Translations under genes and position numbers: made by a program | Shown here: positions 10,868-24,984 of the stretch, piece after piece | Position numbering within the stretch: position 1 is the first letter of the stretch | How the letters are laid out: the number at the start of each line of letters is the position of its first letter | Assembly: GCF_000332995.1 (NCBI RefSeq) | Contig: NZ_BANS01000022.1 | Location: 1-64,000, forward strand | DNA length: 64,000 bases | From: Gordonia amicalis NBRC 100051 = JCM 11271 | Lineage (GTDB): Bacteria; Actinomycetota; Actinomycetes; Mycobacteriales; Mycobacteriaceae | Direction of reading: 5' to 3' | Notes under the pieces: generated by a model | Told to the model about the DNA's origin: nothing | Seen by the model: only the letters and a program-made list of their open reading frames with translations | The model's database searches: none

Positions 10868-12178
10868 TCAGCTCGACAATCGGTGCTCGAGCATCGTCGT
10901 GAGGTCGTTCGCCAGCGCTCGCGAGTCCGCGGTCACCAGCACTCCGTCGCGGACCACCCAGCGGCCACCGACCATCACGTCGCGGGGTCGTCTGCCGGGC
11001 CCCGCCCAGAGAAGACCGTCGAGCGGGTCCGGGACGCCGGCGTCGACGACATCGGAGCAGTCCCACACGCACAGATCCGCCGCGGCCCCGAGCCGAAGGT
11101 GCCCGAGTTCGGGACGGGCGAGACCCGCCGCCGACCCCTCGGTCGCCATCGCCAGACAGTCGCGGGCCGACACCGGGTCGCCGATCAGTCCGGAGACCTG
11201 CATCGCCAGTCGCGCATCCGCGAGGAGGTGGCCGGCATCGTTGCTCCCGCCGCCGCTGGTACCGAGCCCAATGCGTACGCCGGCGCGGCCGAGGGCGGCC
11301 ACGCGGGCGACACCCCAACCCATCGGCACGTCACACCCCGGGGCGTGGGTTGCGTGGGCACCCGACCTCGCCACCAGATCCAGTTCGTCATCGGTGATCT
11401 CGCACAGGTGCGCGACGGTGACATCGGCGGCCAGCCAACCCCAGTCGCCCAGTAGTTCCAGAGGGCGCCGGCCATACCGTTCGGCGGCGACATCGACGTC
11501 GATCTGTTCGTTGGCCTGAGTTCGACGACGCAGTCCGAGACGTGCTGCGACATCGGACAGTGCCGCGAAGGTCTCCGGTCCGTCGGCATGGACCCCGGAC
11601 GGGCCGACGGCGAGTTGGGTCATGCCGTCGACCGACACACCGTCGGTCGCCCCGTGCAGGTGTGCGTCATGGATGTCGACGACCGACTGTGCGGCCGACT
11701 CCGGGTCGTCTCGGGCGGTGCCGCGCACGAAGACCAGCCGTGCGCCGACGCGGCGGGCGGCGCCGATGGTCGCGCCCGCCATCGCGACCGGGTCCTGGTC
11801 GCGGGGCCACGTGAGGTGGTGGTCGGCGACCGTGGTCACCCCGCACAACAGGGATTCGGCGACACCGACTCCAGCCGCGGTGGCGGTGAGCTCGGGGTCC
11901 ACCGCGGCCTCGGTGTAGCGCCGCGCCATCCCCGCGAGCCAGTCCCGCATCGGCCGGAATCGACCGTACGGACGTGAGCGAAAGGCACTCTGCAGCAGGT
12001 GATGATGGGCATTCACCAATCCGGGTGTGATCACGCACCCCAAGGTGTCGACGACCTCGGCATCCGATGGCGCCGGACCCGACGCGATGACCGCGCCGTC
12101 GACGACGATCGGGCCACGCGTCACGGTACTACCGTCCACCAGCACCGCTTCCGCCCCGGTGAGGACGGTCGGCCTCAC
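10868..12178 (-). CDS. amidohydrolase-fold protein with lost metal ligands
   Basis: About 436 aa of the atrazine/8-oxoguanine-deaminase branch of the amidohydrolase superfamily. The HxH motif NAHHHLLQ (His 58 and 60) and VAHL (His 257) are present. The HTH motif that normally supplies the third His reads R-T-Q (Gln 221), and the usual GVDGS Asp is Ser 308 in GLGTSGGGSND. With two of the metal or catalytic residues changed it may be inactive, or use a different chemistry. GTG 12178 overlaps the reductase stop as GTGA; a start 10 codons upstream is less likely. It is the last gene of the operon regulator, reductase, amidohydrolase. Confidence 0.8.
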   Translation of the reverse strand: MRPTVLTGAEAVLVDGSTVTRGPIVVDGAVIASGPAPSDAEVVDTLGCVITPGLVNAHHHLLQSAFRSRPYGRFRPMRDWLAGMARRYTEAAVDPELTATAAGVGVAESLLCGVTTVADHHLTWPRDQDPVAMAGATIGAARRVGARLVFVRGTARDDPESAAQSVVDIHDAHLHGATDGVSVDGMTQLAVGPSGVHADGPETFAALSDVAARLGLRRRTQANEQIDVDVAAERYGRRPLELLGDWGWLAADVTVAHLCEITDDELDLVARSGAHATHAPGCDVPMGWGVARVAALGRAGVRIGLGTSGGGSNDAGHLLADARLAMQVSGLIGDPVSARDCLAMATEGSAAGLARPELGHLRLGAAADLCVWDCSDVVDAGVPDPLDGLLWAGPGRRPRDVMVGGRWVVRDGVLVTADSRALANDLTTMLEHRLSS

Positions 12179-13155
12179 AGCTCGAGCACCAGACGCCCGC
12201 TGGTACAACGTGATACGCAGATCATCATCGACTCGTTCTCGGAGCGTTCCTCCGGCGAGAGCACCGCGTCCCGATGGTCGACCTCACCGCTCACCACCCC
12301 GGTCTCGCAGGTGCCGCACATCCCCTCGCGACACGACGAGGGCGCCACCACCCCGGAGCCGTCGAGGGCTTCGAGGATCGTGCGGTCCTCCGGAACCGTC
12401 AGCGTCACACCGGACATCGCCAGCGACAGCTCGAACTCCCGGTTGGGAACACTCTCCGCGACCGCCGCCGTGAACCGCTCGGTGAACGAGTCCACCGCCG
12501 GTTGCGGTGCACACGCGTCGGCGATCGCGTCGAGCATCGCCGCCGGACCGCAGCCGTACACCGCGGTTCCCCGGGCCGACCCGGTGAGCGCATCGCTCAG
12601 AGTCAGCCGGCCCGACACCCGCGACTCATGCACGGTGACGTGGTCAGGATGAGCCGAGACGAGGTCGTCGGCGTACGCCATCTCCGCCCGCGTTCGCCCG
12701 ATGTACAGCAGTCGCCACGGCCGGCCGGCCGTACGAGCCTCGTCGACCAGCGCGAGTATGGGGGTGATCCCGATCCCACCCGCGACGAACACGTACTCGA
12801 GAGCACGGGTGAGCGCGAAATGGTTCCGCGGCAGACTGATCCACGTCTCATCACCCACCGCGAGATCGTCGTGCACCGACACCGAACCGCCGCGGCCGTC
12901 GGCCCGGCGTTCGACCACGACCCGGTAGACCCCGGGATCGGCGGGACACAACGAGTACTGGCGCACCACTCCCGAGGGCGCGACGAGGTCGACGTGGGAA
13001 CCCGCCGACCAGGCGGGGAGCGGGTCACCGGACGCGGCGGTCAGGACGAACTCCTCGACACGCTCGGCGACCGGCCTGCGCGCGGCGACGCGCACACGTA
13101 AGGGTTGCGCACGACCAGGAGAAGACAGTGCAACCCCGGAGGAAGACAGGGACAT
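12175..13155 (-). CDS. PDR/VanB-type oxidoreductase (FMN reductase plus [2Fe-2S] ferredoxin)
   Basis: A 326-aa electron-transfer protein of the phthalate dioxygenase reductase family. The order is an FMN domain (RQYSLCPAD near residue 85), an NAD domain (VAGGIGITPI; YGCGPAAML) and a C-terminal plant-type [2Fe-2S] ferredoxin (CREGMCGTCETG with a later MMICVSRC). All four cluster cysteines are present. ATG 13155 follows GAGGAG. Such reductases normally feed a Rieske oxygenase such as VanA, but no oxygenase is encoded nearby. Its partner is therefore encoded elsewhere, or it serves another acceptor of the cluster. It is coupled to the amidohydrolase gene by a 4-bp overlap. Confidence 0.88.
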   Translation of the reverse strand: MSLSSSGVALSSPGRAQPLRVRVAARRPVAERVEEFVLTAASGDPLPAWSAGSHVDLVAPSGVVRQYSLCPADPGVYRVVVERRADGRGGSVSVHDDLAVGDETWISLPRNHFALTRALEYVFVAGGIGITPILALVDEARTAGRPWRLLYIGRTRAEMAYADDLVSAHPDHVTVHESRVSGRLTLSDALTGSARGTAVYGCGPAAMLDAIADACAPQPAVDSFTERFTAAVAESVPNREFELSLAMSGVTLTVPEDRTILEALDGSGVVAPSSCREGMCGTCETGVVSGEVDHRDAVLSPEERSENESMMICVSRCTSGRLVLEL

Positions 13156-13235
13156 CGGTGGACTCCTCGATTCGGCGAGGCCCGTCCGGCTCCCAGCCAC
13201 AGGAACCACACCCTCACCGACAGCCGCGACGATCG

Positions 13236-13832
13236 CTACGACGACGCCTGCACCACGATCAGATGCGCGACATCAGGGCCGACCAGTCGCCACCGATGAG
13301 GAATGCCGCCAGCGTAGTAAAGGCTGTCGCCGGTCCGCAATTCGACGATGCGGCCGTCGGACAGATCCACCTCGATCTCACCGGACACCACATGTAGCCA
13401 CTCATCCTGCTCGTGCCGGTAGAAGTCGCCGAATTCCCTTGCACCCAAAGCATGTTCCTGGGGATAGAACGCCGCGTCACCGTTCACCAGCAGCCGGGCA
13501 TGCCCGGCGTCGTCCCCCGTCTGCGGGAGCACGGCACCCTGATCGGCGCGCACGATCTGCGCGCCCGGGGGTGCGTCGGCCGGGGCGTTCCCGGCCCGTC
13601 CCGGGTCCGCGGCGAGCATGAGACTCACCTGCGTCGTCCCCAGCGCACGGGCGATGCGCTCCAGCGTCGTCATACTCGGCCGCGCGTACCCGCGTTCCAG
13701 CTGCGACAGGAAGGAATGCGAGATGCCAGCCTGCGCAGCTAGATTCGCAAGGGTCGTATCCTGCTGTTTGCGTCGCCGGCGGATCTCGGCACCCAGCGAC
13801 GCCTGCGCCGCATCCGGCTCCTCCAGTGCCAT
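13236..13832 (-). CDS. XRE-cupin transcriptional regulator
   Basis: A 198-aa regulator. Residues ~12-65 form an HTH_3 domain (LANLAAQAGISHSFLSQLERGYARPSMTTLERIARAL). Residues ~125-195 form a cupin_2 barrel (HEQDEWLHVVSGEIEVDL, GDSLYYAGGIPHRW). This architecture is typical of regulators of amine, amino-acid and aldehyde catabolism, which sense a small ligand in the cupin. ATG 13832 is chosen because AAAGG lies 8 nt upstream; a GTG three codons earlier is possible. It is divergent from the CodA-like gene across 254 bp containing a perfect 17-bp palindrome, so it is the obvious candidate regulator of both arms of the cluster. Confidence 0.88.
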   Translation of the reverse strand: MALEEPDAAQASLGAEIRRRRKQQDTTLANLAAQAGISHSFLSQLERGYARPSMTTLERIARALGTTQVSLMLAADPGRAGNAPADAPPGAQIVRADQGAVLPQTGDDAGHARLLVNGDAAFYPQEHALGAREFGDFYRHEQDEWLHVVSGEIEVDLSDGRIVELRTGDSLYYAGGIPHRWRLVGPDVAHLIVVQASS

Positions 13833-13919
13833 TCGATGCACCTTTCACACTCCGGCGTTGGTTACACATCCGCAGCCGTGGTTAACAGCGAGGCAACAAC
13901 ACGTTCCTATATTCAGGGG

Positions 13920-13936
13920 TGTTGACGTGGTCAACA
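13920..13936. promoter_or_regulatory. perfect 17-bp palindrome, putative operator
   Basis: TGTTGACGTGGTCAACA has 7-bp arms around a 3-bp centre. It lies in the divergent gap, just after a TATATT box at 13908-13913 on the plus strand. It would overlap or abut the transcription start of the catabolic operon. The best candidate binder is the adjacent XRE-cupin regulator. Confidence 0.6.
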
Positions 13937-14086
13937 AATATCACGAAACCGCTCCCGCCGATCCCAGCCCCGGCGGAACCACCGAGACCGGCGCACCGAG
14001 GCGCCGAGATCGATCTCTGCCGCACAGCCCACGAGCGCAACGTCGCACTCACGTCCAGAACCACCGGCCGCCAACGGAGTTCACTC

Positions 14087-15388
14087 ATGCAGGACACGCC
14101 GCACGGACCCGTGCACGGCATCACCGCGTCGTTGACCGACGGCACGCTCGCCGATGTCGAGCTGCTGTCCGGTCCCGACGGAGTGGTGCGCGTGGCGAGG
14201 ATCGCGCCCGTCTCCGACCGGAACCCACGCGATCACACCGCCCGGGCCGACCCGCAGTGGCTCGATCTGCGCGACTTCGTCCTCACCGCGTCCGCCGCCG
14301 AACCGCACGCGCACCTGGACAAGGCCTTTTCGTGGACAGAGCTGAATCCGCCGCTCGGCGACCTCGATACGGCGATCACGGTCTGGCGAGCGGGAAGCGT
14401 CCGTCTCGACGAGGAGTCCTTCCGCCGGCGGGCGACGCGGGCGATCACCACCCTGCTTCGCAACGGGATCACTGCCGTCCGAACACATGTCGACGTGCCG
14501 CCCGGCCCAGACCCGCTCCGGGCCACCCGGGCGCTGGTCGGCGTCCGGGAGGCCATGCGCGACCTGGTCACGATTCAGATCGTCGCGCTGGCGAATCCGC
14601 TCACCCCGACCGAGGTCGTCGTCGAAGCACTCGACGCCGGCGCGGACCTGGTGGGCGGAGCACCGCACATCGCCGACGACCCGCGCGCCGAGGTGGCCCG
14701 GCTGGTCGGCCTCGCCGAATCCCGCGGAGTCGGCATCGACCTGCACACCGACGAGTTCCTCGACGGCGACCACCACACCATCGACCACTTCGCCGACCGC
14801 GTCGCCGACTGGCCCGCGGATCGTCTCCGAACCGCCGGACACTGCTGCCGTCTCGACACCATGCCTCTCGACGAACTGGAACGGGTCGCCGACGCCCTCG
14901 CCCGTGCATCGGTGTCGGTGGTCGCGTTGCCGATCACGAACCTCTATCTCCAAGGACGGCACGGCCCGTCGAAAGGACGGCGCGGTATCACCGCGATCGA
15001 CGTGCTCCGCGATCGCGGTGTCCTCGTCACCGCCGGGGCCGACAACATCCGCGATCCGTTCAACCCGGTGGGACGCGCGGACCCGCTGGAGACCGCGTCG
15101 CTCCTGGTCACCGCCGGTCACCAGAGTCCCTACACGGCAATGTCACTGGTCACCGACGCTGCCCGTACCGCGCTCGGCCTCCCCGCCGGCGGACCCGTCG
15201 TCGGGGCACGTGCAGATTTCCTCGCGGTCCGGGGCACCGACGTACTCGACACCATCGCGACCGCCCCCGCGGACCGGGTGGTCCTCGTCAACGGTTCGAT
15301 CGTGGCCCGCACCGAGACCACCACCTGGACCGCAGTCCCGGCCGAGTCCCGCGCCGGCGCCCCTGATCACGCCACACCGGCTCCCTAG
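14087..15388 (+). CDS. CodA-like amidohydrolase (cytosine/creatinine deaminase family)
   Basis: A 433-aa cytoplasmic metal hydrolase. The motifs follow cytosine deaminase closely: AEPHAHLDKAF (HxH), VRTHVDV, IDLHTDEFLDG (His and the catalytic Glu), TAGHCCRLDTM (His) and TAGADNIRDPF (Asp). All metal ligands are intact, so it should deaminate or hydrolyse an N-heterocycle; members act on cytosine, isocytosine, creatinine or related rings. ATG 14087 has GGAG 8 nt upstream, and the 56 upstream codons of open frame contain the palindrome and are not coding. It is the first gene of an eight-gene operon that continues with an importer and oxidases. Confidence 0.82.
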   Translation: MQDTPHGPVHGITASLTDGTLADVELLSGPDGVVRVARIAPVSDRNPRDHTARADPQWLDLRDFVLTASAAEPHAHLDKAFSWTELNPPLGDLDTAITVWRAGSVRLDEESFRRRATRAITTLLRNGITAVRTHVDVPPGPDPLRATRALVGVREAMRDLVTIQIVALANPLTPTEVVVEALDAGADLVGGAPHIADDPRAEVARLVGLAESRGVGIDLHTDEFLDGDHHTIDHFADRVADWPADRLRTAGHCCRLDTMPLDELERVADALARASVSVVALPITNLYLQGRHGPSKGRRGITAIDVLRDRGVLVTAGADNIRDPFNPVGRADPLETASLLVTAGHQSPYTAMSLVTDAARTALGLPAGGPVVGARADFLAVRGTDVLDTIATAPADRVVLVNGSIVARTETTTWTAVPAESRAGAPDHATPAP

Positions 15389-15402
15389 GTCCTGGAGACG
15401 TC

Positions 15403-16197
15403 ATGACCCCATCAGCGCCGACCCCCTCAGCGCCGACCCCGTCGGCCACACCCCTCGAACTCGGTCATCCGCTCGTCGGTTTCGAGCACGCCGAACTGAC
15501 CTATCCAGACGGAACCCACGCTCTGCGGGACGTGAACCTGACCGTCCGGGAAGGCGAGTTCGTCAGCGTCGTCGGCCCCTCGGGATGCGGTAAGTCGACC
15601 CTGCTGCGACTGTCCTCCGGCCTGGAGACGATCACCGACGGGTACATGCAGTGCGGTGCGGACCGCATCGGTTACGTGTTCCAGGACGCCACACTCCTCC
15701 CCTGGCGGTCGGTCGCCGACAACGTCGCCCTGCTCGGCGAACTCGACGGTGTGCCGAAAGCGGAGCGGCGTCAGAGGATTGCCGCTGCGCTGGAGACAGT
15801 GGGCCTCAACGGTTTCGAGGATCATCTGCCGCACATGCTCTCCGGCGGCATGCGCATGCGTGTATCGCTCGCCCGGTCGCTCACCCTCGACCCCGACCTG
15901 TTCCTCTTCGACGAGCCGTTCGCCGCGCTCGACGAGCTGACCCGCGAACGGCTCGGGGTCGAGCTCACCGAGCTGTTCGCCGTCAAACGCTTTGCGGGCC
16001 TGTTCATCACCCACTCCGTGGCCGAAGCAGCATTCCTGTCCACGCGGGTGCTCGTGATGTCCGGGCGTCCCGGCACGATCGTCGACGAGATCGAGATCCC
16101 GTTCGACTTCCCACGCTCTCCGGACCTGCGTTTCGAGCCCGAGTTCGCCGCGATCGCCGGTCGGATCTCCCGCTCGCTGAGGGAGGCACACTCATGA
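15403..16197 (+). CDS. ABC importer ATP-binding protein (SsuB/TauB/ThiZ type)
   Basis: A 264-aa ATPase. Walker A is GPSGCGKST near residue 57, the Q-loop is YVFQDATLLPW, the signature SGGMRMRVSLAR and Walker B LFLFDEPFAALD, with the switch His in FITHSVAEA. It starts with a repetitive Pro/Thr/Ser-Ala linker. The FQDxxLLPW form is typical of the nitrate/sulfonate/taurine/pyrimidine importer class. It follows the CodA-like gene by 14 nt and is joined to the permease by ATGA. It energises uptake of the cluster's substrate. Confidence 0.9.
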   Translation: MTPSAPTPSAPTPSATPLELGHPLVGFEHAELTYPDGTHALRDVNLTVREGEFVSVVGPSGCGKSTLLRLSSGLETITDGYMQCGADRIGYVFQDATLLPWRSVADNVALLGELDGVPKAERRQRIAAALETVGLNGFEDHLPHMLSGGMRMRVSLARSLTLDPDLFLFDEPFAALDELTRERLGVELTELFAVKRFAGLFITHSVAEAAFLSTRVLVMSGRPGTIVDEIEIPFDFPRSPDLRFEPEFAAIAGRISRSLREAHS

Positions 16198-17072
16198 CGG
16201 TCCCCACGGGCACCACGCCCGCCGCCGACACCACGGCGGTCGTCGACACCGGCTCGACCACGGAGCTCGCCGTCGCAGCCGCACGCAAGCGTCGACCACG
16301 TTCCCGATCGTTCGTCTCGATCGCGGCGCCACTCGTCGTGCTGGGCATCGTGATCGGTCTCTGGTACCTCGTCACCTACGCGATCCTCGACGAGGGCAGG
16401 CGTTTCCTCATGCCGGCTCCGCACCGCGTGGTCACCGACGGCTTGTTCGGCACTGCCGCGCCGTCGATGTGGGAAGCCCTCGGCCGGACGACGACGGTGG
16501 CCCTGACCGGTCTGGCCATCGCCGCCGTCATCGGCATCGTGTGGGCGGTGGTGATGTCCCAGTCGCGCATGATGGAGACCGCGTTGTTCCCCTATGCGGT
16601 GGTGTTGCAGTGCATACCGATCCTGGCGCTGGTTCCCCTCGTCGGCTTCTGGTTCGGGTTCGGTTTCAGCGCACGGGTTTTCGTGTGTGTGCTCATCGCA
16701 CTGTTCCCGATCGTGTCCAACACCCTCTTCGGTCTGCGGTCGGTGGATCGGCAGATGCGCGACCTGTTCGCACTGCATCACCCGAGCCGGCTCACCGTGC
16801 TGCGCAAACTCGAGTTCCCCGCGGCGATGCCCGCCATCTTCGCCGGACTGCGCATCTCCGCGGGCCTGTCCGTGGTGGGTGCGATCGTCGGCGACTTCTT
16901 CTTCAAACAGGGGAACCCCGGCATCGGCATCCTCATCGACAACTACCGGTCACGACTGCAATCCGAAGAGCTGTTCGCCTCCATCGTGCTCGCGTCGTTG
17001 CTCGGGGTCGTCGTCTTCTGGCTCTTCGGCCGGCTCGGCAACCGGATCGTCGGCCGCTGGTACCAGCGCTGA
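16194..17072 (+). CDS. ABC importer permease (SsuC/ThiX type)
   Basis: A 292-aa inner-membrane permease with about six transmembrane segments after a charged N-terminal tail of ~40 residues. The EAA-type coupling loop lies around LRKLEFPAAMPAIFAGLRISAGLS, as expected for BPD_transp_1 proteins of the sulfonate/thiamine-precursor class. The start ATG overlaps the ATPase stop (ATGA). It works with the ATPase at 15403 and the lipoprotein at 17159. Nothing in it identifies the solute. Confidence 0.88.
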   Translation: MTVPTGTTPAADTTAVVDTGSTTELAVAAARKRRPRSRSFVSIAAPLVVLGIVIGLWYLVTYAILDEGRRFLMPAPHRVVTDGLFGTAAPSMWEALGRTTTVALTGLAIAAVIGIVWAVVMSQSRMMETALFPYAVVLQCIPILALVPLVGFWFGFGFSARVFVCVLIALFPIVSNTLFGLRSVDRQMRDLFALHHPSRLTVLRKLEFPAAMPAIFAGLRISAGLSVVGAIVGDFFFKQGNPGIGILIDNYRSRLQSEELFASIVLASLLGVVVFWLFGRLGNRIVGRWYQR

Positions 17073-17158
17073 CACGCCGGCCCGGCCCCCGCTCTCCCGC
17101 TCGTCCCGCTCGTACCTGTCCGTTCCCGACCGTAATCGGCTCTACCGAAAAGGAAGTC

Positions 17159-18337
17159 ATGAACACACACGTCTGGCGTCGCCTGTCCAAGGCCACCGGG
17201 GTGATGGCCGTCGCCGCGGCCGTCGCCTTCACCGCGGCCTGCGGTTCCGACGACACCGCCGAGTCCTCCGGCTACACCGGTCCGATCGGTCCGGTCGACC
17301 TCAGCGCGAACTGCCCGGACAAGGTCGTCATCCAGACGGACTGGAACCCCGAGGCCGAACACGGCCACCTGTATCAGCTGCTCGGACCGGACCCGGTGAT
17401 CAACGCCGGCAACAAGCGGGTGACGGGACCACTGTTCGACCGCGGCCAGTACACCGGCGTCGACGTCGAGATCCGCGCCGGCGGACCGGCGATCGGCTTC
17501 CAGTCGGTCACCTCGCAGATGTACTCCGACCCCGAGATCCTGCTGGGCTACGTCGACACCGACCAGGCGATCCAGAACTCCGAGTCGAACCCGACGGTGG
17601 CCGTCATGGCTCCGCTGGACATCAGCCCGCAGATGATCATGTGGGACCCGGCCACCTACCCGCAGGTGAAGGGCATCGGCGACCTCAAGCCGGTCGATGC
17701 GCGCGTGCTCTACTTCGAGGGCGCCACCTACATGGACTATCTGACCGGTTCCGGCGTCCTGTCACCGGATCAGGTCGACGGCAGCTACGACGGCACACCC
17801 GCGAACTTCGTCGCGGCCGGCGGCAAGACGGCCCAGCAGGGCTACGCCAGCTCCGAGCCCCAGCTCTACGAGGAGGAGGTGGAGGGCTGGAAGAAGCCGG
17901 TCTCCTACCAGCTCGTCCACGACGTGGGCTTCCCCACGTACAAGTCCGCGATGGCCGTCCGCGCCGGCGCTCTTGAGGAGAACACCGCCTGCCTCGAGCA
18001 GCTCGTCCCCGTCCTCCAGCGCGGCGTGGTCGACTACCTCGCGTCGCCCGAGACCGCCAACAAGGTCGTCCTCGACGCCGTCGAGCAGTACGACACCGGG
18101 TGGGTCTACACCCAGCGCAACGCCGACTACGCACTGGAGACCATGGCGCAGCTGAAGCTCATCGGCAACGGCCCGAACGGCACGGTCGGCGACTTCGACA
18201 CCGCACGCGTGCAGCGGGTGATCGACGTGACCACCCCGATCTTCGACAAGCAGGGCACCCCCGTCGTCGAGGGCATCACCCCGGACACGGTCTCGACCAA
18301 CCGGTTCATCGACACCTCCGTGGGGTTGCCGTCGTGA
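17159..18337 (+). CDS. ABC substrate-binding lipoprotein (NMT1/THI5-like)
   Basis: A 392-aa lipoprotein. The signal ends FTAAC-GSD at about residue 25, with the lipidated Cys in a proper lipobox. The mature protein begins with VVIQTDWNPEAEHGHLYQLLG, the hallmark segment of the SsuA/THI5-like family, whose members bind sulfonates, hydroxymethylpyrimidine and flavin-like rings. ATG 17159 follows AGGAAG. It comes 86 nt after the permease and is GTGA-coupled to the FAD oxidase. Binding of a nitrogen heterocycle would fit the enzymes around it; this is inference. Confidence 0.85.
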   Translation: MNTHVWRRLSKATGVMAVAAAVAFTAACGSDDTAESSGYTGPIGPVDLSANCPDKVVIQTDWNPEAEHGHLYQLLGPDPVINAGNKRVTGPLFDRGQYTGVDVEIRAGGPAIGFQSVTSQMYSDPEILLGYVDTDQAIQNSESNPTVAVMAPLDISPQMIMWDPATYPQVKGIGDLKPVDARVLYFEGATYMDYLTGSGVLSPDQVDGSYDGTPANFVAAGGKTAQQGYASSEPQLYEEEVEGWKKPVSYQLVHDVGFPTYKSAMAVRAGALEENTACLEQLVPVLQRGVVDYLASPETANKVVLDAVEQYDTGWVYTQRNADYALETMAQLKLIGNGPNGTVGDFDTARVQRVIDVTTPIFDKQGTPVVEGITPDTVSTNRFIDTSVGLPS

Positions 18338-19665
18338 CCTCCCCGGTGATCGCGGTCGGCACCGACGACGGACGACCCGACTTCGGTCCGGGCGACGTCG
18401 ACGCGCTGGCCGACGATCTCCTGGCACTTCTCGGACCGCGCGGGATCAGCACGCTACCCCGCGCGCTGGAACGCGCAGGCCGGGACGGGTCGGGGATGAG
18501 CCCGATCCTGTCCGCGCAGGATCTCGGGACCCCCGACCTCGTGTGCTACCCGCGCACGGCGGAGGTGGTGCCCGCGATCGTCCGCGCGGCGGTCGCCCGG
18601 GGCGTTCCGGTCACCACCCGCGGGAAGGGCACCGGCAACTACGGGCAGGTGATCCCCCGGTTCGGCGGTCTCGTCCTGGACATGACCTCGCTCAACGGGA
18701 TTCACGAGATCACCGATCAGACGATCACGGCCCAGGCAGGCGCGCGGATGATCAACCTGGAGCAGACCGCCTGGGGTTCCGGAAGTCAGCTGTGGATGTA
18801 CCCGTCGACGGTGCAGTCCACGCTCGGCGGCTTCCTCGGCGGCGGGTCGGCCGGCACCGGCACGATCGTGCACGGTCGCAATCACGAGGGTTTCGTGACG
18901 GCGCTCGACGTCGTCTACGGCACCGAGGACGCCGAACTGGTGCACCTGGAAGGTGATGACGCACAGCCTTTCGTCCACACCTACGGGGTGGCGGGTGTCA
19001 TCGTGAACGCCTCGGTGCGCGTCGAACCACTCCAGGAATGGCGCTGTGTGTACGCCAGTTTCGGGTCGACCCGGGAGGCCTTCGACGCCGCCCACCGGCT
19101 CTCGTCGATCGAGCCGAGACCGCGACTGCTGTCGGCGGACGGTCCCACCGTCGTCGAGGCGCTGCCCGCCGACCCCGCCTTCGTGCGGGGTCGCGCGAAT
19201 GTCCGCGGAATCATCGACGCGAGAGCACTCGAGGAGTCCACCGATCTCATCGCCGGCGCCGGCGGCCGGGTCGAGGCGGTCCGCGAGGGCATCGCCGAGA
19301 CGATCAAGCTGTCCACGCTGTCCTACAACCATCCGACCTGGTGGCTGCAGAAAGCGCAGCCGGACAGGTGGTTTCACATGGAGGTCCGCGGCGACGCACT
19401 GGTCACCCGCCTCGAGGAGGTGGAGAAGGTCTACGAGGGCGGGATGCTCCACCTAGAGGTCGGTCACGGGATGATGTTCGGGATGCTCAACGGGATCTAC
19501 TGCAACGCACAGCAGGTCATCGACGGGGTCGCCGCCCTCGAGGAACTCGGGGTCGGCGTCCACTCACCTCACCAGTGGTACGTCGATCTCGACGCCGAAC
19601 GCGTGCAGGCGCTCGCGGCCCGGACCGACCCGAAAGGCCTTCTGAATCCCGGGAGGTGGATGTGA
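18334..19665 (+). CDS. FAD-binding oxidase (PF01565/PCMH-type)
   Basis: A 443-aa flavoprotein. The PCMH FAD domain shows PAIVRAAVARGVPVTTRGKGTG (pyrophosphate binding), the QAGARM segment and STLGGFLGGGSAGTG near residue 165. The C-terminal region ends DPKGLLNPGRWM, as in GlcD/VAO-type oxidases. It should oxidise a C-H or C-N bond, with oxygen or a carrier as acceptor. Start GTG overlaps the lipoprotein stop, and its own stop overlaps the next GTG. Together with the FMN protein two genes on it implies at least one redox step in the pathway. The substrate is unknown. Confidence 0.85.
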   Translation: MTSPVIAVGTDDGRPDFGPGDVDALADDLLALLGPRGISTLPRALERAGRDGSGMSPILSAQDLGTPDLVCYPRTAEVVPAIVRAAVARGVPVTTRGKGTGNYGQVIPRFGGLVLDMTSLNGIHEITDQTITAQAGARMINLEQTAWGSGSQLWMYPSTVQSTLGGFLGGGSAGTGTIVHGRNHEGFVTALDVVYGTEDAELVHLEGDDAQPFVHTYGVAGVIVNASVRVEPLQEWRCVYASFGSTREAFDAAHRLSSIEPRPRLLSADGPTVVEALPADPAFVRGRANVRGIIDARALEESTDLIAGAGGRVEAVREGIAETIKLSTLSYNHPTWWLQKAQPDRWFHMEVRGDALVTRLEEVEKVYEGGMLHLEVGHGMMFGMLNGIYCNAQQVIDGVAALEELGVGVHSPHQWYVDLDAERVQALAARTDPKGLLNPGRWM

Positions 19666-20441
19666 CCGCAGCGTTCGGGTCCCGCCGCTACGCCGAACTC
19701 ACCACCGCCGAGATCGACTCCGCACTCTCCCGGGACTCGATCCTCGTCCTGCCGACCGGGGCGATCGAACCGCACGGCCCGCATCTCCCGCTGGCGACCG
19801 ACCTCATCGTCGCCGAGGCCGTGTCGGCCGCCGTCGTCGGACGCGGAGCCGCAGCCGGACATGACGTCTGGCTGCTCCCCGCACTCGGTTACACCAAGTC
19901 CGACGAGCATGCCGCACTCCCCGGCACGATGTGGCTGCGACCGTCCACTCTGTTCGAGACCATCGTGGACATCGGGTCGTCGATGGCCGCGACCCCCGCA
20001 CGACGGCTGCTGTTCCTCAATGCGCACGGCGGCAATTCGGCGCTGATCGAGGTGGCGGCACGTGAACTGCGTCGACGCTTCGGCCTGCAGACGTTCTTCA
20101 CCTCCGGCCCCGGTCGGGCCGGCCCCACCGAACGAGGACTGGGGATCCATGCCGGGTGGGCCGAGACGTCGATGATGCTGCATCTGCGACCGGATCTCGT
20201 CCAGATGGACAAAGCCGTCGCCGCGGTGGCCGACGCGGTGGCCGATTCGAACCACGTCGGCTTCACCAAAGCCGTCAAGTTCGGTTGGCTGTCGACCGAT
20301 TTCGCCGAGTCCGGGGTCATCGGCGACCCCACCGGGGCAGACGCCGCCATCGGGGCGGAACTCTTCGAGGAGCGCGTCATCGCCCTCGTGGATGCGCTCG
20401 CCGACATCGCGACCTTCGACCCCGGACGGGTGCGGCGATGA
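19662..20441 (+). CDS. creatininase-family hydrolase
   Basis: A 259-aa metal hydrolase of the creatininase/MftE/ArfB family. Family motifs are intact: LPTGAIEPHGPHLPLATD (Glu and His ligands), FLNAHGGNSAL, and GIHAGWAETSMML near residue 165, where the second His and Glu bind metal. Members open lactam or amide bonds (creatinine, formamidopyrimidines) or cleave a peptide. No mycofactocin genes are nearby, so MftE is unlikely. GTGA and ATGA overlaps tie it to both neighbours. It most likely opens a ring amide made by the upstream oxidase or deaminase. Confidence 0.88.
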   Translation: MTAAFGSRRYAELTTAEIDSALSRDSILVLPTGAIEPHGPHLPLATDLIVAEAVSAAVVGRGAAAGHDVWLLPALGYTKSDEHAALPGTMWLRPSTLFETIVDIGSSMAATPARRLLFLNAHGGNSALIEVAARELRRRFGLQTFFTSGPGRAGPTERGLGIHAGWAETSMMLHLRPDLVQMDKAVAAVADAVADSNHVGFTKAVKFGWLSTDFAESGVIGDPTGADAAIGAELFEERVIALVDALADIATFDPGRVRR

Positions 20442-21049
20442 TCACCAGCGGGGTGGAGTTCGGAAGCGATTGTCCGCCCGAGGAATACCGCACCATCGAT
20501 CCCATGGTGTTGCTCCGACGCTGGCTACCGCCCGCCGACGCCGCCCCCGCACTCATGGCGCTCTCGACTCTCGGGCGCGACGGGTATCCGCGCGTGCGCC
20601 ACGTGCTGCTCAGTGACGCCGACGACGCCGCGGTGTACTTCCACACCGACAGCCGGTCGTCGAAGGTGGCCGAGCTGGCCGAACTGCCACGGGCCGGGAT
20701 CGCGGTGGCGTGGCCGCAGCGGGGACGCCAGGTGGTCGCGCACGGCATCGTGCGACGGCCGGCGGAAGACTCTCTCCGCGAGACCTTCTCGCGCCGCACC
20801 CGCTACCTGCAGCTGCTCGCCTGGTGCAACGATCACGAGATGTCGGCACTCCCCACCCACGGTCGGCATCGACGATGGGCGGAGTTCGACGCCACCCATC
20901 CGACACTGAGCCCGCCGGACACGTGGACGGGTTTCGCCATCGACATCCGCGAGATCGCCTTCTGGCGCGGCGATCCGGACGGCCCCTCGCAACGGGTCCG
21001 CTTCACCCGCACCGACCATTCCTGGACATCGGAGGTTCTTCCCGGATGA
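20438..21049 (+). CDS. pyridoxamine-phosphate-oxidase-like FMN protein
   Basis: A 203-aa split-barrel flavoprotein. RVRHVLLSD, VYFHTDSRSSKVAEL and RQVVAHGIVRR match the FMN-contact motifs of PNPOx proteins, and the C-terminal FWRGDPDGPSQRVRF resembles the PNPOx dimer tail. It is shorter at the C-terminus than PdxH, and its setting in a catabolic operon argues against vitamin B6 synthesis. It could be an FMN-dependent oxidase or reductase for a ring substrate. The start overlaps the creatininase stop (ATGA) and its stop overlaps the next ATG. Confidence 0.82.
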   Translation: MITSGVEFGSDCPPEEYRTIDPMVLLRRWLPPADAAPALMALSTLGRDGYPRVRHVLLSDADDAAVYFHTDSRSSKVAELAELPRAGIAVAWPQRGRQVVAHGIVRRPAEDSLRETFSRRTRYLQLLAWCNDHEMSALPTHGRHRRWAEFDATHPTLSPPDTWTGFAIDIREIAFWRGDPDGPSQRVRFTRTDHSWTSEVLPG

Positions 21050-22458
21050 CGGCCACGACCTTTCACAATGCGCTGATCCTGCCGGTCGCGGGAGACAAGC
21101 CCTGGTTCCGCGGATGGCTGACCGCGGACGCCGGCGGGCGGATCTCCGGCATCGGCGAGGGCGCCCCACCGGCGGATGCGCCGGGAGTGCGACACGACCT
21201 CGAGGGATGTTTCCTCGCACCGGGTTTCGTGTCGGGTCACAGCCACATCTACACCGGCGGCATGCGCGGTGTCGCCGCGGACAGCCCGCTCTACGAATGG
21301 GTGTCCCGCAACAGCCTGATGCTGCTCGGCGCCGACGCCGACGACCTCTACTGGATGACCCTGGCCGGCGGCCTGGACCACCTGTCGTCGGGTATCACCT
21401 CGGTGTACAACTTCACCCAGTCACGGGTGATCGCACTGTTCGACTACGAGAAGTCGGTGCTCCGCGCCGAACGGATCCACCCCGCCGAGTTCGTCAACCG
21501 CCAGGTCGACGGGTTGGCGGCGTCGGGTATCCGGTTCGTCACCAGCGTGCGACTCGACGACGAACAGTTCGCCGAGGACGAGGCCTTCCACGGATTCGAC
21601 GAGGTCATGCGACATCTCGCCACCGTCGACCCGGCCCTGAACCTGGGCGGCTCGGTGTACGGCTCCGTCCAGTGGTCCTCCGCGCCGGTGACCGCCGAAC
21701 GCGAACGCGCCCTGATGGATCGGTACGGCATCACCAACCAGGCCCACTTCGTCGAGACCGCGGAGCAGATCGACATCCAGCAGGCCAAATTCGACTGGTA
21801 CGACGCCGCCGGTGTGCTCGGCCCCGATTTCGCGTTCGGTCACTTTGTGCATCCGACGGACCGGATGGTCGCGCGTGCGCGCGACACCGGTTCGTCCGTC
21901 GTCTGGCAACCGATGTCCAACGGTCGGCTCGGCTCCGGCATCGCCGACATCCCGCGCCTCCTCTCCGACGCCGTCACGGTCGGCATGGGTGTCGACGACC
22001 AGTCCTGCACGGACGTGTCGGATCCGTTCGAGAACATGCGCACCGGGCTGTTCCTGCAGCGCGGTCTGCGCAGCGATGCCGCGGTGCTGTCCCCGGCGGA
22101 CGTACTCGCCCTGCACACCATCGGATCGGCCACCGCGATCGGGGTCGCCGACCGGGTCGGCTCCCTGGAGGTCGGGAAGTACGCGGATCTGGTCGTCGTC
22201 GATCCGTACTCACCGCACACCGGGCCGATCTGGGACCCGGTTGCCACCTACGTTCTCGGATGCGGACTCCGGAACCTGCGTGAGGTCTTCGTCGGCGGTC
22301 GGTCGGTATGGGCACGCGGCGTATCGGACCCGATGCGGTCCGAGGCCGATCTCGAACTCACCGAGCGGATGATCCGCTCGGCGGCCCGCTCGGGGATTCG
22401 CCCGGCCGTCTCCCCGCCTGCCGATCGCGCCCGGACTCTCGCCATCCGAAGCAGATGA
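21046..22458 (+). CDS. amidohydrolase (TrzA/AtzA/SsnA branch)
   Basis: A 470-aa metal-dependent hydrolase with all ligands present: GHSHIY near residue 65 (HxH), NQAHFVET (His, Glu), FGHFVHP (His) and GMGVDDQSCTD (Asp). The C-terminal VADRVGSLEVGKYADLVVVDP is the composite barrel closure of this branch. Members deaminate or dechlorinate ring substrates such as triazines, guanine or S-adenosylhomocysteine. This intact enzyme contrasts with the degenerate paralogue at 10868 in the same cluster. It is last in the operon, coupled by ATGA. Confidence 0.85.
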   Translation: MTATTFHNALILPVAGDKPWFRGWLTADAGGRISGIGEGAPPADAPGVRHDLEGCFLAPGFVSGHSHIYTGGMRGVAADSPLYEWVSRNSLMLLGADADDLYWMTLAGGLDHLSSGITSVYNFTQSRVIALFDYEKSVLRAERIHPAEFVNRQVDGLAASGIRFVTSVRLDDEQFAEDEAFHGFDEVMRHLATVDPALNLGGSVYGSVQWSSAPVTAERERALMDRYGITNQAHFVETAEQIDIQQAKFDWYDAAGVLGPDFAFGHFVHPTDRMVARARDTGSSVVWQPMSNGRLGSGIADIPRLLSDAVTVGMGVDDQSCTDVSDPFENMRTGLFLQRGLRSDAAVLSPADVLALHTIGSATAIGVADRVGSLEVGKYADLVVVDPYSPHTGPIWDPVATYVLGCGLRNLREVFVGGRSVWARGVSDPMRSEADLELTERMIRSAARSGIRPAVSPPADRARTLAIRSR

Positions 22459-22666: not shown

Positions 22667-22681
22667 TGTTAGTGACTAACA
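22667..22681. promoter_or_regulatory. 15-bp palindromic operator before the MMPL gene
   Basis: TGTTAGTGACTAACA is a perfect palindrome with a G centre. The half-site GTGACTAACG recurs at 22586-22595. The 309-bp gap 22459-22767 holds nothing else that I could assign. The TetR gene at the end of the same operon is the likely binder. Confidence 0.65.
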
Positions 22682-22767
22682 CGTATGGCGGCAGTGCCAT
22701 ATGTCGCACGATCGGTCGGCACTGCCGCCGACCCCTGCGCTCGAAAACCGAAAGGGTTTACCACGCC

Positions 22768-24984
22768 ATGGCGTCGTATCTGTTCAAGCTCGGGAGGTTC
22801 TCCTTCCGGCACAAGTGGGCCGTCATAGCGGTCTGGCTGATCGCGATGATCGCGGTCGTCTCGCTCGTCGGCGTGCTGAAGCCGAAGTTCGCCCAGGACT
22901 TCAGCCTGCCCGGAACCGATTCGGGCACCGCCACCGAGCAGGTGGAGGAGTACTTCCCGCAGGTCATGAAGGAGCAGGAACGCGCGTCCACGAGCATCGT
23001 CGTGGCCGCGAACGACGGCCTGCAGAACCACACCGAGCAGATCAACAAGCTGGCCGAGGATCTCCGCACGCTGCCGGACGTCATCGCCCCGGAGACCGTG
23101 GTGAACCCGGTGATGGCTGCTGCCGTCGACCCGGCCATCGCCGCGTCGGTCCTCGGCGACAACGATCGCGTCGGCCTGATCCAGGTCCGTCAGAACATCA
23201 CGATCATGGACCTGACGACCGAGAACAAGGACCAGCTCGTCAAGATCCTCGACGAGAACCGCGGCAACGGCCTGCAGGTCGAGGCCACCGGCGCGCTGAT
23301 GCAGGTGATGGAGCAGGGCGGCGCCGCCGAACTGATCGGCTTCGCCATCGCGTTCGTCGTCATGATCGTCGCCTTCGGCGCCCTGATCGCCGCGTTCATC
23401 CCGCTCGTCACCGCCATCGTCGGCGTCGCGATCACCATCATGCTGCTCACCCTGTCGGCCGAGCTGCTCTCGATCAACCAGTCGGCGACCGCCATCGTCA
23501 CCATGCTGGGCATCGCCGTGTCCATCGACTACGCGCTGTTCATCGTGTCCCGGTACCGGGCCGAACTGAGCCGGGGCGGTGATGCGGCCGATGCCGCCGG
23601 CCGCGCGGTCGGAACGGCCGGATCGGCTGTCGTGTTCGCCGGCCTCACGGTCATCATCGCGGTCGTCGCCCTCGTGGTCATCGGCATCCCGATCATCACC
23701 CAGATGGGTGCCGGCGCCGCCGTCGCCGTCCTGATCGCGGTCGTCGCCGCACTCACGCTCATCCCGGCACTCCTCGGCGCGTTCGGTCGCTTCGCCTTCC
23801 GTCCGAAGATCCCGTGGATCAAGCACGCCGAGCAGTCCGAGGACGGCGACACCCTGGGCGTCCGCCTCGGCCGCACCGTCGTCAAGGCTCCGATCCCCTT
23901 CATCGTCCTCGGCCTGCTGGCTCTCGCCGCGGCCGCCATCCCGGCCACCAAGATGGAGCTGGGCCTGTCGCTGTCGACCGAGGACGAGGCACCGGCGCAA
24001 GCCTTGCTGAGCAAGGGTTTCGGTGAGGGCATCAACGGCCCGCTGCTCGTCATCCTGCACGACGCCGACGCCCCGATCGCGCCGGCCGCGGACGACGCCG
24101 TCAAGCACATCGCCACCCTGAAGGACGTCGTCAACCCCGACTCGCTCACCTGGATCGGCAACGAGGGCGGACAGAACGGCAACACCGCACTCATCACCGT
24201 GACACCGAAGAGCGCACCGTCCTCGCCGGCGACGCACACGCTGATGGAGAACATCCGCGCGTACGCACCGGTTGTCGACGAGCAGGGCGCCGAACTGCAT
24301 GTCGGCGGACAGACCGCGATCATGTCGGATCTGTCGCAGAAGCTCGACGACGCGCTGATCCCCTATCTGATCGTCGTCGTCGGCCTGGCGTTCCTGATCA
24401 TGATCGGTGTCTTCCGCTCCCTGTGGGTGCCGCTGATCGGCACGGTCGGCTTCATCTTCTCCGTGCTCGCGACCTTCGGCATCACAGTTGCGATCTTCCA
24501 GGAGGGCTGGTTCGGCATCATCTCGCACACCCAGCCGATCATCTCGTTCCTGCCGATCTTCCTCATCGGCGTGGTCTTCGGACTCGCGATGGACTACCAG
24601 GTGTTCCTGGTGACCCGAATGCGCGAGGAGTACATCCACGGCATGACCGCCAAGGAGGCCATCGTCGCGGGCTACCGGCACGGCGCCCGTGTGGTGACGT
24701 CGGCGGCGATCATCATGATCAGCGTCTTCGCCGCGTTCATGCTGTCCCCGGAGACGACCGCCAAGATGATGGGCTTCGCCCTCGCCTCGGCAGTCCTGTT
24801 CGACGCCTTCGTGATCCGCATGCTGGTCGTCCCGGCCGTGATCGCCCTCCTCGGCGACCGCGCCTGGACCCTGCCGCGCTGGCTCGACAAACTCGTCATC
24901 AACTTCGACATCGAGGGCGAGTCGGTCCGCCACCGCGGGCTCGCAGATCCGGACGACACGAAGACGCCGGTACCGGCGGGCTGA
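22768..24984 (+). CDS. MMPL-family RND transporter
   Basis: A 738-aa inner-membrane transporter with two repeated halves. Each has one helix, a large periplasmic domain and then a five-helix block (first block ~residues 190-350, second ~530-710). FDY/GIAVSIDYALFIVSRYR and FGLAMDYQVFLVTRMREEY are the two MMPL/RND proton-relay signatures with paired Asp-Tyr. It resembles the ActII-3/YdfJ type that exports antibiotics, lipids or dyes. ATG 22768 follows AAAGGG; the frame open upstream crosses the operator. It is followed 2 nt later by its TetR regulator, so efflux of a toxic ligand sensed by that protein is likely. Confidence 0.9.
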   Translation: MASYLFKLGRFSFRHKWAVIAVWLIAMIAVVSLVGVLKPKFAQDFSLPGTDSGTATEQVEEYFPQVMKEQERASTSIVVAANDGLQNHTEQINKLAEDLRTLPDVIAPETVVNPVMAAAVDPAIAASVLGDNDRVGLIQVRQNITIMDLTTENKDQLVKILDENRGNGLQVEATGALMQVMEQGGAAELIGFAIAFVVMIVAFGALIAAFIPLVTAIVGVAITIMLLTLSAELLSINQSATAIVTMLGIAVSIDYALFIVSRYRAELSRGGDAADAAGRAVGTAGSAVVFAGLTVIIAVVALVVIGIPIITQMGAGAAVAVLIAVVAALTLIPALLGAFGRFAFRPKIPWIKHAEQSEDGDTLGVRLGRTVVKAPIPFIVLGLLALAAAAIPATKMELGLSLSTEDEAPAQALLSKGFGEGINGPLLVILHDADAPIAPAADDAVKHIATLKDVVNPDSLTWIGNEGGQNGNTALITVTPKSAPSSPATHTLMENIRAYAPVVDEQGAELHVGGQTAIMSDLSQKLDDALIPYLIVVVGLAFLIMIGVFRSLWVPLIGTVGFIFSVLATFGITVAIFQEGWFGIISHTQPIISFLPIFLIGVVFGLAMDYQVFLVTRMREEYIHGMTAKEAIVAGYRHGARVVTSAAIIMISVFAAFMLSPETTAKMMGFALASAVLFDAFVIRMLVVPAVIALLGDRAWTLPRWLDKLVINFDIEGESVRHRGLADPDDTKTPVPAG

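Follow-up and report, generated by a model that had tools for sequence, protein, structure and literature searches.

Which compound is taken up and degraded by the gene products encoded at positions 10868-22458 of the Gordonia amicalis NBRC 100051 sequence analysed here, and do these genes belong together? The window is the 64,000-nucleotide stretch from position 1 to 64,000 of contig NZ_BANS01000022.1. As the sequence-only reading of this DNA had stated, the region holds eleven genes in two divergent arms; all frames are open, in frame and terminated by a stop codon, and families were assigned to them. The minus arm comprises the genes for an amidohydrolase (AH_minus), a VanB-type reductase and an XRE-cupin protein. 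The plus arm encodes a CodA-like amidohydrolase, the ATPase and permease of an ATP-binding cassette (ABC) importer, a substrate-binding lipoprotein (SBP), a FAD_binding_4 enzyme (FAD enzyme), a creatininase-family protein, a PNPOx-like protein and a second amidohydrolase (AH_plus). Of the seven plus-strand junctions, five overlap by 4 bp, one fewer than previously counted; a gap of 14 bp separates the CodA-like gene from the ABC ATPase gene, and one of 86 bp lies between the ABC permease and lipoprotein genes. The G+C content of the cluster is 0.687 and that of its flanks 0.684. Comparative data support the view that the eleven genes are one conserved functional unit importing and degrading a nitrogen heterocycle. 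This unit and its kinship with the gene set around PDB entry 6v42 are well supported, whereas the identity of the substrate is the least secure point: a pteridine, i.e. a pterin or a folate breakdown product, is tentatively proposed, with a probability that we put just short of even.

A search of 298 genomes of the order yielded homologues of the FAD enzyme with 53-59% identity in 16 genomes besides that of G. amicalis; the sample contained four further genomes of the genus, all without such a homologue. At least two further cluster genes adjoin the FAD enzyme gene in all 16 genomes, so that the lack of co-occurrence in related genomes that was to refute the earlier interpretation was not seen. 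The flanking genes encode the VanB-type and PNPOx-like proteins in 15 genomes and the CodA-like, creatininase-family and substrate-binding proteins in one. Among the 20-kb stretches examined for ten of the 16 genomes, the CodA-like, both ABC and the SBP genes were found in nine and are absent from one (L040). Three more divergent stretches (L045, L047, L048) carry the XRE, CodA-like, ABC, SBP, FAD enzyme, creatininase-family and AH_minus genes and lack those for VanB, PNPOx and AH_plus; L049 has only the CodA-like, ABC, SBP and FAD enzyme genes, and L044 and L046 only those for the ABC ATPase, the FAD enzyme and XRE. This distribution suggests that the cluster consists of a core set and an accessory set.

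Bacterial genomes were also scanned with an SBP alignment, and the best 80 of 542 relatives were kept as loci. Without an identity floor, the 80 loci contained the ABC ATPase 62, the permease 62, the CodA-like protein 57, the creatininase-family protein 55, the FAD enzyme 55, VanB 48, PNPOx 43, AH_minus 42, XRE 34 and AH_plus 28 times. With gene-specific identity floors of 33-55% (at least 55% for the ABC ATPase, 45% for the creatininase family and 40% for AH_plus) the respective counts were 61, 62, 57, 53, 55, 48, 43, 41, 34 and 25. Absence at several of the 80 loci means little because the contigs are short; the neighbouring open reading frames were called by a crude criterion of codon bias and length, and some of them resemble antisense frames. 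At least five cluster genes besides that of the SBP are present at 56 of the 80 loci, from 16 named genera and one further member of the Microbacteriaceae, and the CodA-like, both ABC, FAD enzyme and creatininase-family genes occur together at 48. The gene set and much of the gene order recur across the 16 named genera, in agreement with the earlier proposal of a single unit that imports a nitrogen heterocycle and degrades it by means of flavoproteins and C-N hydrolases. The SBP gene stands alone at 15 loci, all from genera of the Microbacteriaceae (Herbiconiux, Agreia, Subtercola). A plasmid search with the G. amicalis FAD enzyme and AH_minus returned nothing at 1e-30 and 1e-50.

The nearest relative of the FAD enzyme, by sequence and by fold, is 6v42, whose PDB title describes a flavin oxygenase of folate catabolism; both contain the motif GTGNYGQ, and the FAD enzyme falls within the 6v42 subfamily. 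A second motif, as written [SF][YWF]NH, occurs in none of nine proteobacterial rows, eight of which, likewise 6v42, have [WY]NHTT at that position. A search with the 6v42 sequence gave matches in 141 plasmid records. Twelve proteobacterial stretches were selected, five by a 6v42 match (L144, L152-L155) and seven by a creatininase match (L145-L151). The former contain the CodA-like and both ABC genes in all five cases and the creatininase-family gene in four, and the FAD enzyme is present in all seven of the latter. The gene set around the proteobacterial relatives of 6v42 is largely the same as that of the cluster, and the earlier statement that no described pathway with these genes was known is not supported. 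In the set represented by PDB 6v42/6v43, as in G. amicalis, a GTGNYGQ-containing FAD enzyme of one subfamily is accompanied by a creatininase-family protein, a CodA-like amidohydrolase, an ABC importer and often a reductase. Most proteobacterial stretches differ in having LysR or TetR regulators and RidA where the actinobacterial set has the XRE-cupin protein, and the TrzN-like AH_minus, AH_plus and PNPOx go beyond the proteobacterial set. The module appears to be new in detail but not in kind, since a distant relative of its putative oxygenase carries a folate-degradation label in the PDB. A further version, on the Klebsiella plasmid NZ_CP074582.1 (18799-31315, L156), has a divergent arm that encodes a further SBP together with a TRZ/ATZ-type amidohydrolase and a 2OG-Fe oxygenase. 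The Rut pyrimidine pathway likewise combines a flavin-dependent ring attack involving a reductase with a hydrolase, and RidA and TetR are companions in the Proteobacteria; unlike Rut, the cluster has a flavoenzyme of the FAD_binding_4 fold and no RutA-type family in the family lists of its eleven proteins.

Because a reductase-type gene recurs in most proteobacterial stretches, the gene set probably contains an electron-donor slot for a flavin oxygenase. The VanB-type reductase is present in Pantoea and Klebsiella, and in seven of the other ten stretches its place is taken by a gene annotated as encoding an NAD(P)H-dependent oxidoreductase or a 2Fe-2S protein. For the protein previously described as a PCMH-type FAD oxidase, a role as an oxygenase that receives its electrons from the VanB-type reductase is more likely than one as a simple oxidase. 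An N-demethylation system, an idea derived from the VanB-type reductase, was rejected, as the profile lists of the eleven cluster proteins contain no Rieske domain; the seven Rieske matches of the genome lie on other contigs, and the Klebsiella and Pantoea stretches also have the VanB-type gene without an annotated Rieske oxygenase. A VanA-like Rieske oxygenase gene lies near the cluster at four of 60 loci, these being the members of the 80 with a FAD-enzyme or creatininase-family match at a coverage of at least 75% (L114 and L129 with only a weak creatininase-family match, L085 with only the FAD enzyme). The PNPOx-like protein does not qualify as the pyridoxamine phosphate oxidase PdxH (TIGR00558, 93.8 versus 180 bits).

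All cluster enzymes score below the NCBIfam cut-offs of the families from which their names derive. Assignment of AH_minus as a true 8-oxoguanine deaminase (239.6 bits versus the PRK08203 cut-off of 532), of the CodA-like protein as a true cytosine deaminase (PRK07583, 176.9 versus 403 bits; PRK09230, 122.9 versus 483 bits) and of the creatininase-family protein as a true creatininase (TIGR04448, 91.5 versus 235 bits) or the mycofactocin protein MftE (TIGR03964, 143.3 versus 172 bits) was discarded. Residues 33-439 of AH_minus are homologous to TrzN (E 5e-53), and its nearest relatives are TrzN and the 8-oxoguanine deaminases; however, the metal-binding His and Asp of these enzymes are replaced by Gln231 and Ser318 in all 45 aligned sequences. 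The canonical metal residues are present in 67 of 67 sequences of the CodA-like amidohydrolase and 32 of 32 of AH_plus, and the residues compared in the creatininase-family protein are kept in 62 of 62. For these counts rows with a stop and matches below 75% coverage were dropped, and identity floors of 50% (AH_minus), 38% (CodA-like) and 40% (AH_plus) were applied; the positions are those that we take to be metal ligands from the alignment and from the general pattern of the amidohydrolase superfamily. The conserved ligand loss points to AH_minus as a presumably unusual enzyme of the amidohydrolase fold.

The lipoprotein has no Pfam or NCBIfam family at E 0.001 and no PDB sequence match, and a comparison of the SBP profile with PDB sequences was also empty. 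Its predicted fold is of the ThiY/THI5 type and nearest to pyrimidine and thiamin binders, and because of this fold the protein is regarded as THI5/NMT1-like. The lipoprotein differs from the ThiXYZ/THI5-type pyrimidine importers (ThiY, 3ix1) in having no sequence-level match to them, and the cluster enzymes are not thiamin salvage enzymes. In L043 (13471-14811) two adjoining reading frames share the SBP homologue between them, which may reflect a disrupted gene or faulty assembly. Solitary SBP paralogues of Microbacteriaceae (L074, L094, L101) stand beside genes some of which, judged by eye, resemble those for a flavin reductase, a urea-carboxylase-associated (DUF1989-like) protein and a GntR regulator.

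Table 1. Genes of the G. amicalis cluster, with positions in the window
Gene product	Position	Strand	Basis of assignment
AH_minus, TrzN/8-oxoguanine-deaminase-like (TRZ/ATZ-type) amidohydrolase	10868..12208	-	profile matches, TrzN alignment
VanB/PDR-type reductase, NAD-binding and 2Fe-2S ferredoxin; proposed electron donor	12175..13209	-	profile matches
XRE-cupin regulator; start 13832 or 13841 possible	13236..13841	-	profile matches
CodA/AtzC-like amidohydrolase, canonical metal residues retained	14087..15388	+	profile matches, alignment
ABC importer ATPase, TauB/SsuC type	15403..16197	+	profile matches
ABC importer permease, TauB/SsuC type	16194..17072	+	profile matches
Substrate-binding lipoprotein, ThiY/THI5 fold	17159..18337	+	predicted fold
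FAD_binding_4 (PCMH-type) flavoenzyme, 6v42 subfamily; proposed oxygenase	18334..19665	+	profile, tree, motif
Creatininase-family hydrolase, neither creatininase nor MftE by cut-off	19662..20441	+	profile matches, residues
PNPOx/PhzG-like FMN protein	20438..21049	+	profile matches
AH_plus, second TRZ/ATZ-type amidohydrolase, canonical metal residues retained	21046..22458	+	profile matches, alignment

Downstream of the cluster and outside it, a large open reading frame at 22672-24984 resembles, by eye, an MMPL-type transporter gene. Counted over the 60 loci defined above, the neighbouring genes encode members of the MTHFR family (24), allantoinase (16), XdhC (16), uricase (15), short-chain dehydrogenase (15), XDH-type Mo-hydroxylase (11), isochorismatase (9), 2OG-Fe oxygenase (3) and allantoicase (1). 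A true 8-oxoguanine deaminase or a relative with at least 51% identity occurs at seven loci (L061, L068, L088, L089, L096, L098, L124), the raw count of 14 having included AH_minus; the Dietzia copy scores 611 bits versus the cut-off of 532. Microbacteriaceae account for the loci with uricase and XdhC, and in Dietzia an XDH-type gene, allantoinase, allantoicase and 8-oxoguanine deaminase lie near the cluster in a different arrangement. A Pfam census of 87 flanking frames (of 216 candidates), of which the best 25 of 110 families were inspected, gave no dominant extra family and does not exclude M20 carboxypeptidases. An amidase fused to an AtzH-like domain (L073, 3432-5012) adjoins the cluster of Nocardia jiangxiensis. 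The G. amicalis genome itself contains an XDH-type gene with 58% identity to that of the Agreia cluster, genes for HIU hydrolase and OHCU decarboxylase, and an allantoinase gene above the cut-off; the first three are found in contig C94, L142 (11404-15118) and L143 (2298-3163), and the genome has no PF01014 uricase. The FAD enzyme was considered as a uricase substitute and dismissed as a general rule, since 39 of the 48 carrier genomes searched do encode PF01014 uricase.

According to the pteridine reading, the lipoprotein and the ABC importer would take up the compound, as the predicted fold suggests, and the CodA-like protein and AH_plus, with their aligned metal sites, may remove exocyclic amino groups. 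The FAD enzyme would insert oxygen into the ring with electrons from the VanB-type reductase, and the resulting cyclic amide or formamide would be hydrolysed by the creatininase-family protein. PNPOx may act as a flavin reductase or as an oxidase of a dihydro ring, and the XRE-cupin protein is the likely regulator. The products may then join purine catabolism through the XDH-type, HIU hydrolase, OHCU decarboxylase and allantoinase genes located elsewhere in the genome; this order of steps is itself putative.

Several observations weigh against a pteridine as substrate. The FAD enzyme and 6v42 have 27% identity and belong to separate deep clades of the tree, so that a common subfamily is no proof of a common substrate, and the folate label stems from a single PDB title, the associated paper of which was not found. 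AH_minus lacks two metal ligands, and three of the twelve proteobacterial stretches (L147, L148, L149) have no VanB-type, NAD(P)H-dependent or 2Fe-2S companion, which speaks against the proposed electron donor. An MTHFR-like gene was abandoned as an obligatory part, having no match in the G. amicalis genome or in 13 of 17 sampled carriers. A p-aminobenzoyl-glutamate-cleaving gene was not recognised in the regions viewed, at which no profile search for it was aimed. Finally, profile searches detected no PF01014 uricase in G. amicalis or in nine of the 48 carriers (four Gordonia, one Mycobacterium, two Dietzia and two Corynebacterium), so that a purine outlet would need another urate-oxidising enzyme, which the presence of the XDH-type, HIU hydrolase and OHCU decarboxylase genes makes likely in G. 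amicalis.

The comparative evidence favours pterin or folate and purine compounds, which were missing from the pyrimidine, flavin, triazine and creatinine-like candidates named before. Degradation of a modified purine, for instance an N-alkylated, methylated or oxidised guanine or xanthine, by the same kind of pathway is the less probable of these and on balance unlikely: three amidohydrolases would strip the ring, and a Mo-hydroxylase and the flavoenzyme would oxidise it en route to urate and allantoin. The uricase, allantoinase, XDH-type, XdhC and 8-oxoguanine deaminase genes near some of the loci and the kinship of AH_minus with TrzN and 8-oxoguanine deaminases are consistent with this; yet these neighbours stem from one family, the Microbacteriaceae, and from Dietzia, no purine-catabolic enzyme is recognised among the eleven proteins, the uricase is missing from the G. 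amicalis genome, and 6v42 is titled with folate catabolism. Another nitrogen heterocycle, such as a pyrimidine or thiamin fragment, a flavin product, an s-triazine or a hydantoin, is still less probable. The SBP fold, the CodA-like and TrzN-like enzymes and the AtzH-like-domain amidase of N. jiangxiensis would suit such a compound, but the lists for the eleven proteins include no barbiturase, cyanuric acid hydrolase or thiaminase family, and folate is the sole functional label found in the FAD subfamily. It is very improbable that the locus is a loose neighbourhood of unrelated catabolic genes without a single pathway. VanB, PNPOx, AH_plus and XRE are indeed missing from many loci, and L040, L044 and L046 retain only fragments within the stretch examined, but the set recurs with closely spaced genes in two phyla and 16 named genera, which largely contradicts this explanation.

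To our knowledge, the genes with which bacteria degrade the pteridine ring of folates and pterins are poorly known, and a literature search, with most subscription journals outside its reach, found no paper on such a gene cluster. A bolder version of the pteridine reading, which we consider improbable, holds that the cluster supplies the genes still missing from the aerobic catabolism of the pteridine ring: a pterin would be imported, deaminated, oxygenated by the flavoenzyme and contracted to a purine-type product that feeds into the xanthine/urate route, and the metal-depleted AH_minus would catalyse a rearrangement instead of a hydrolysis. Classical work reportedly described the conversion of an oxidised pteridine to a xanthine carboxylate by bacteria; it serves here only as a lead for this bolder version. 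With its recognisable importer and oxygenase, this compact and widespread actinobacterial gene set makes the breakdown of the pteridine ring directly testable.

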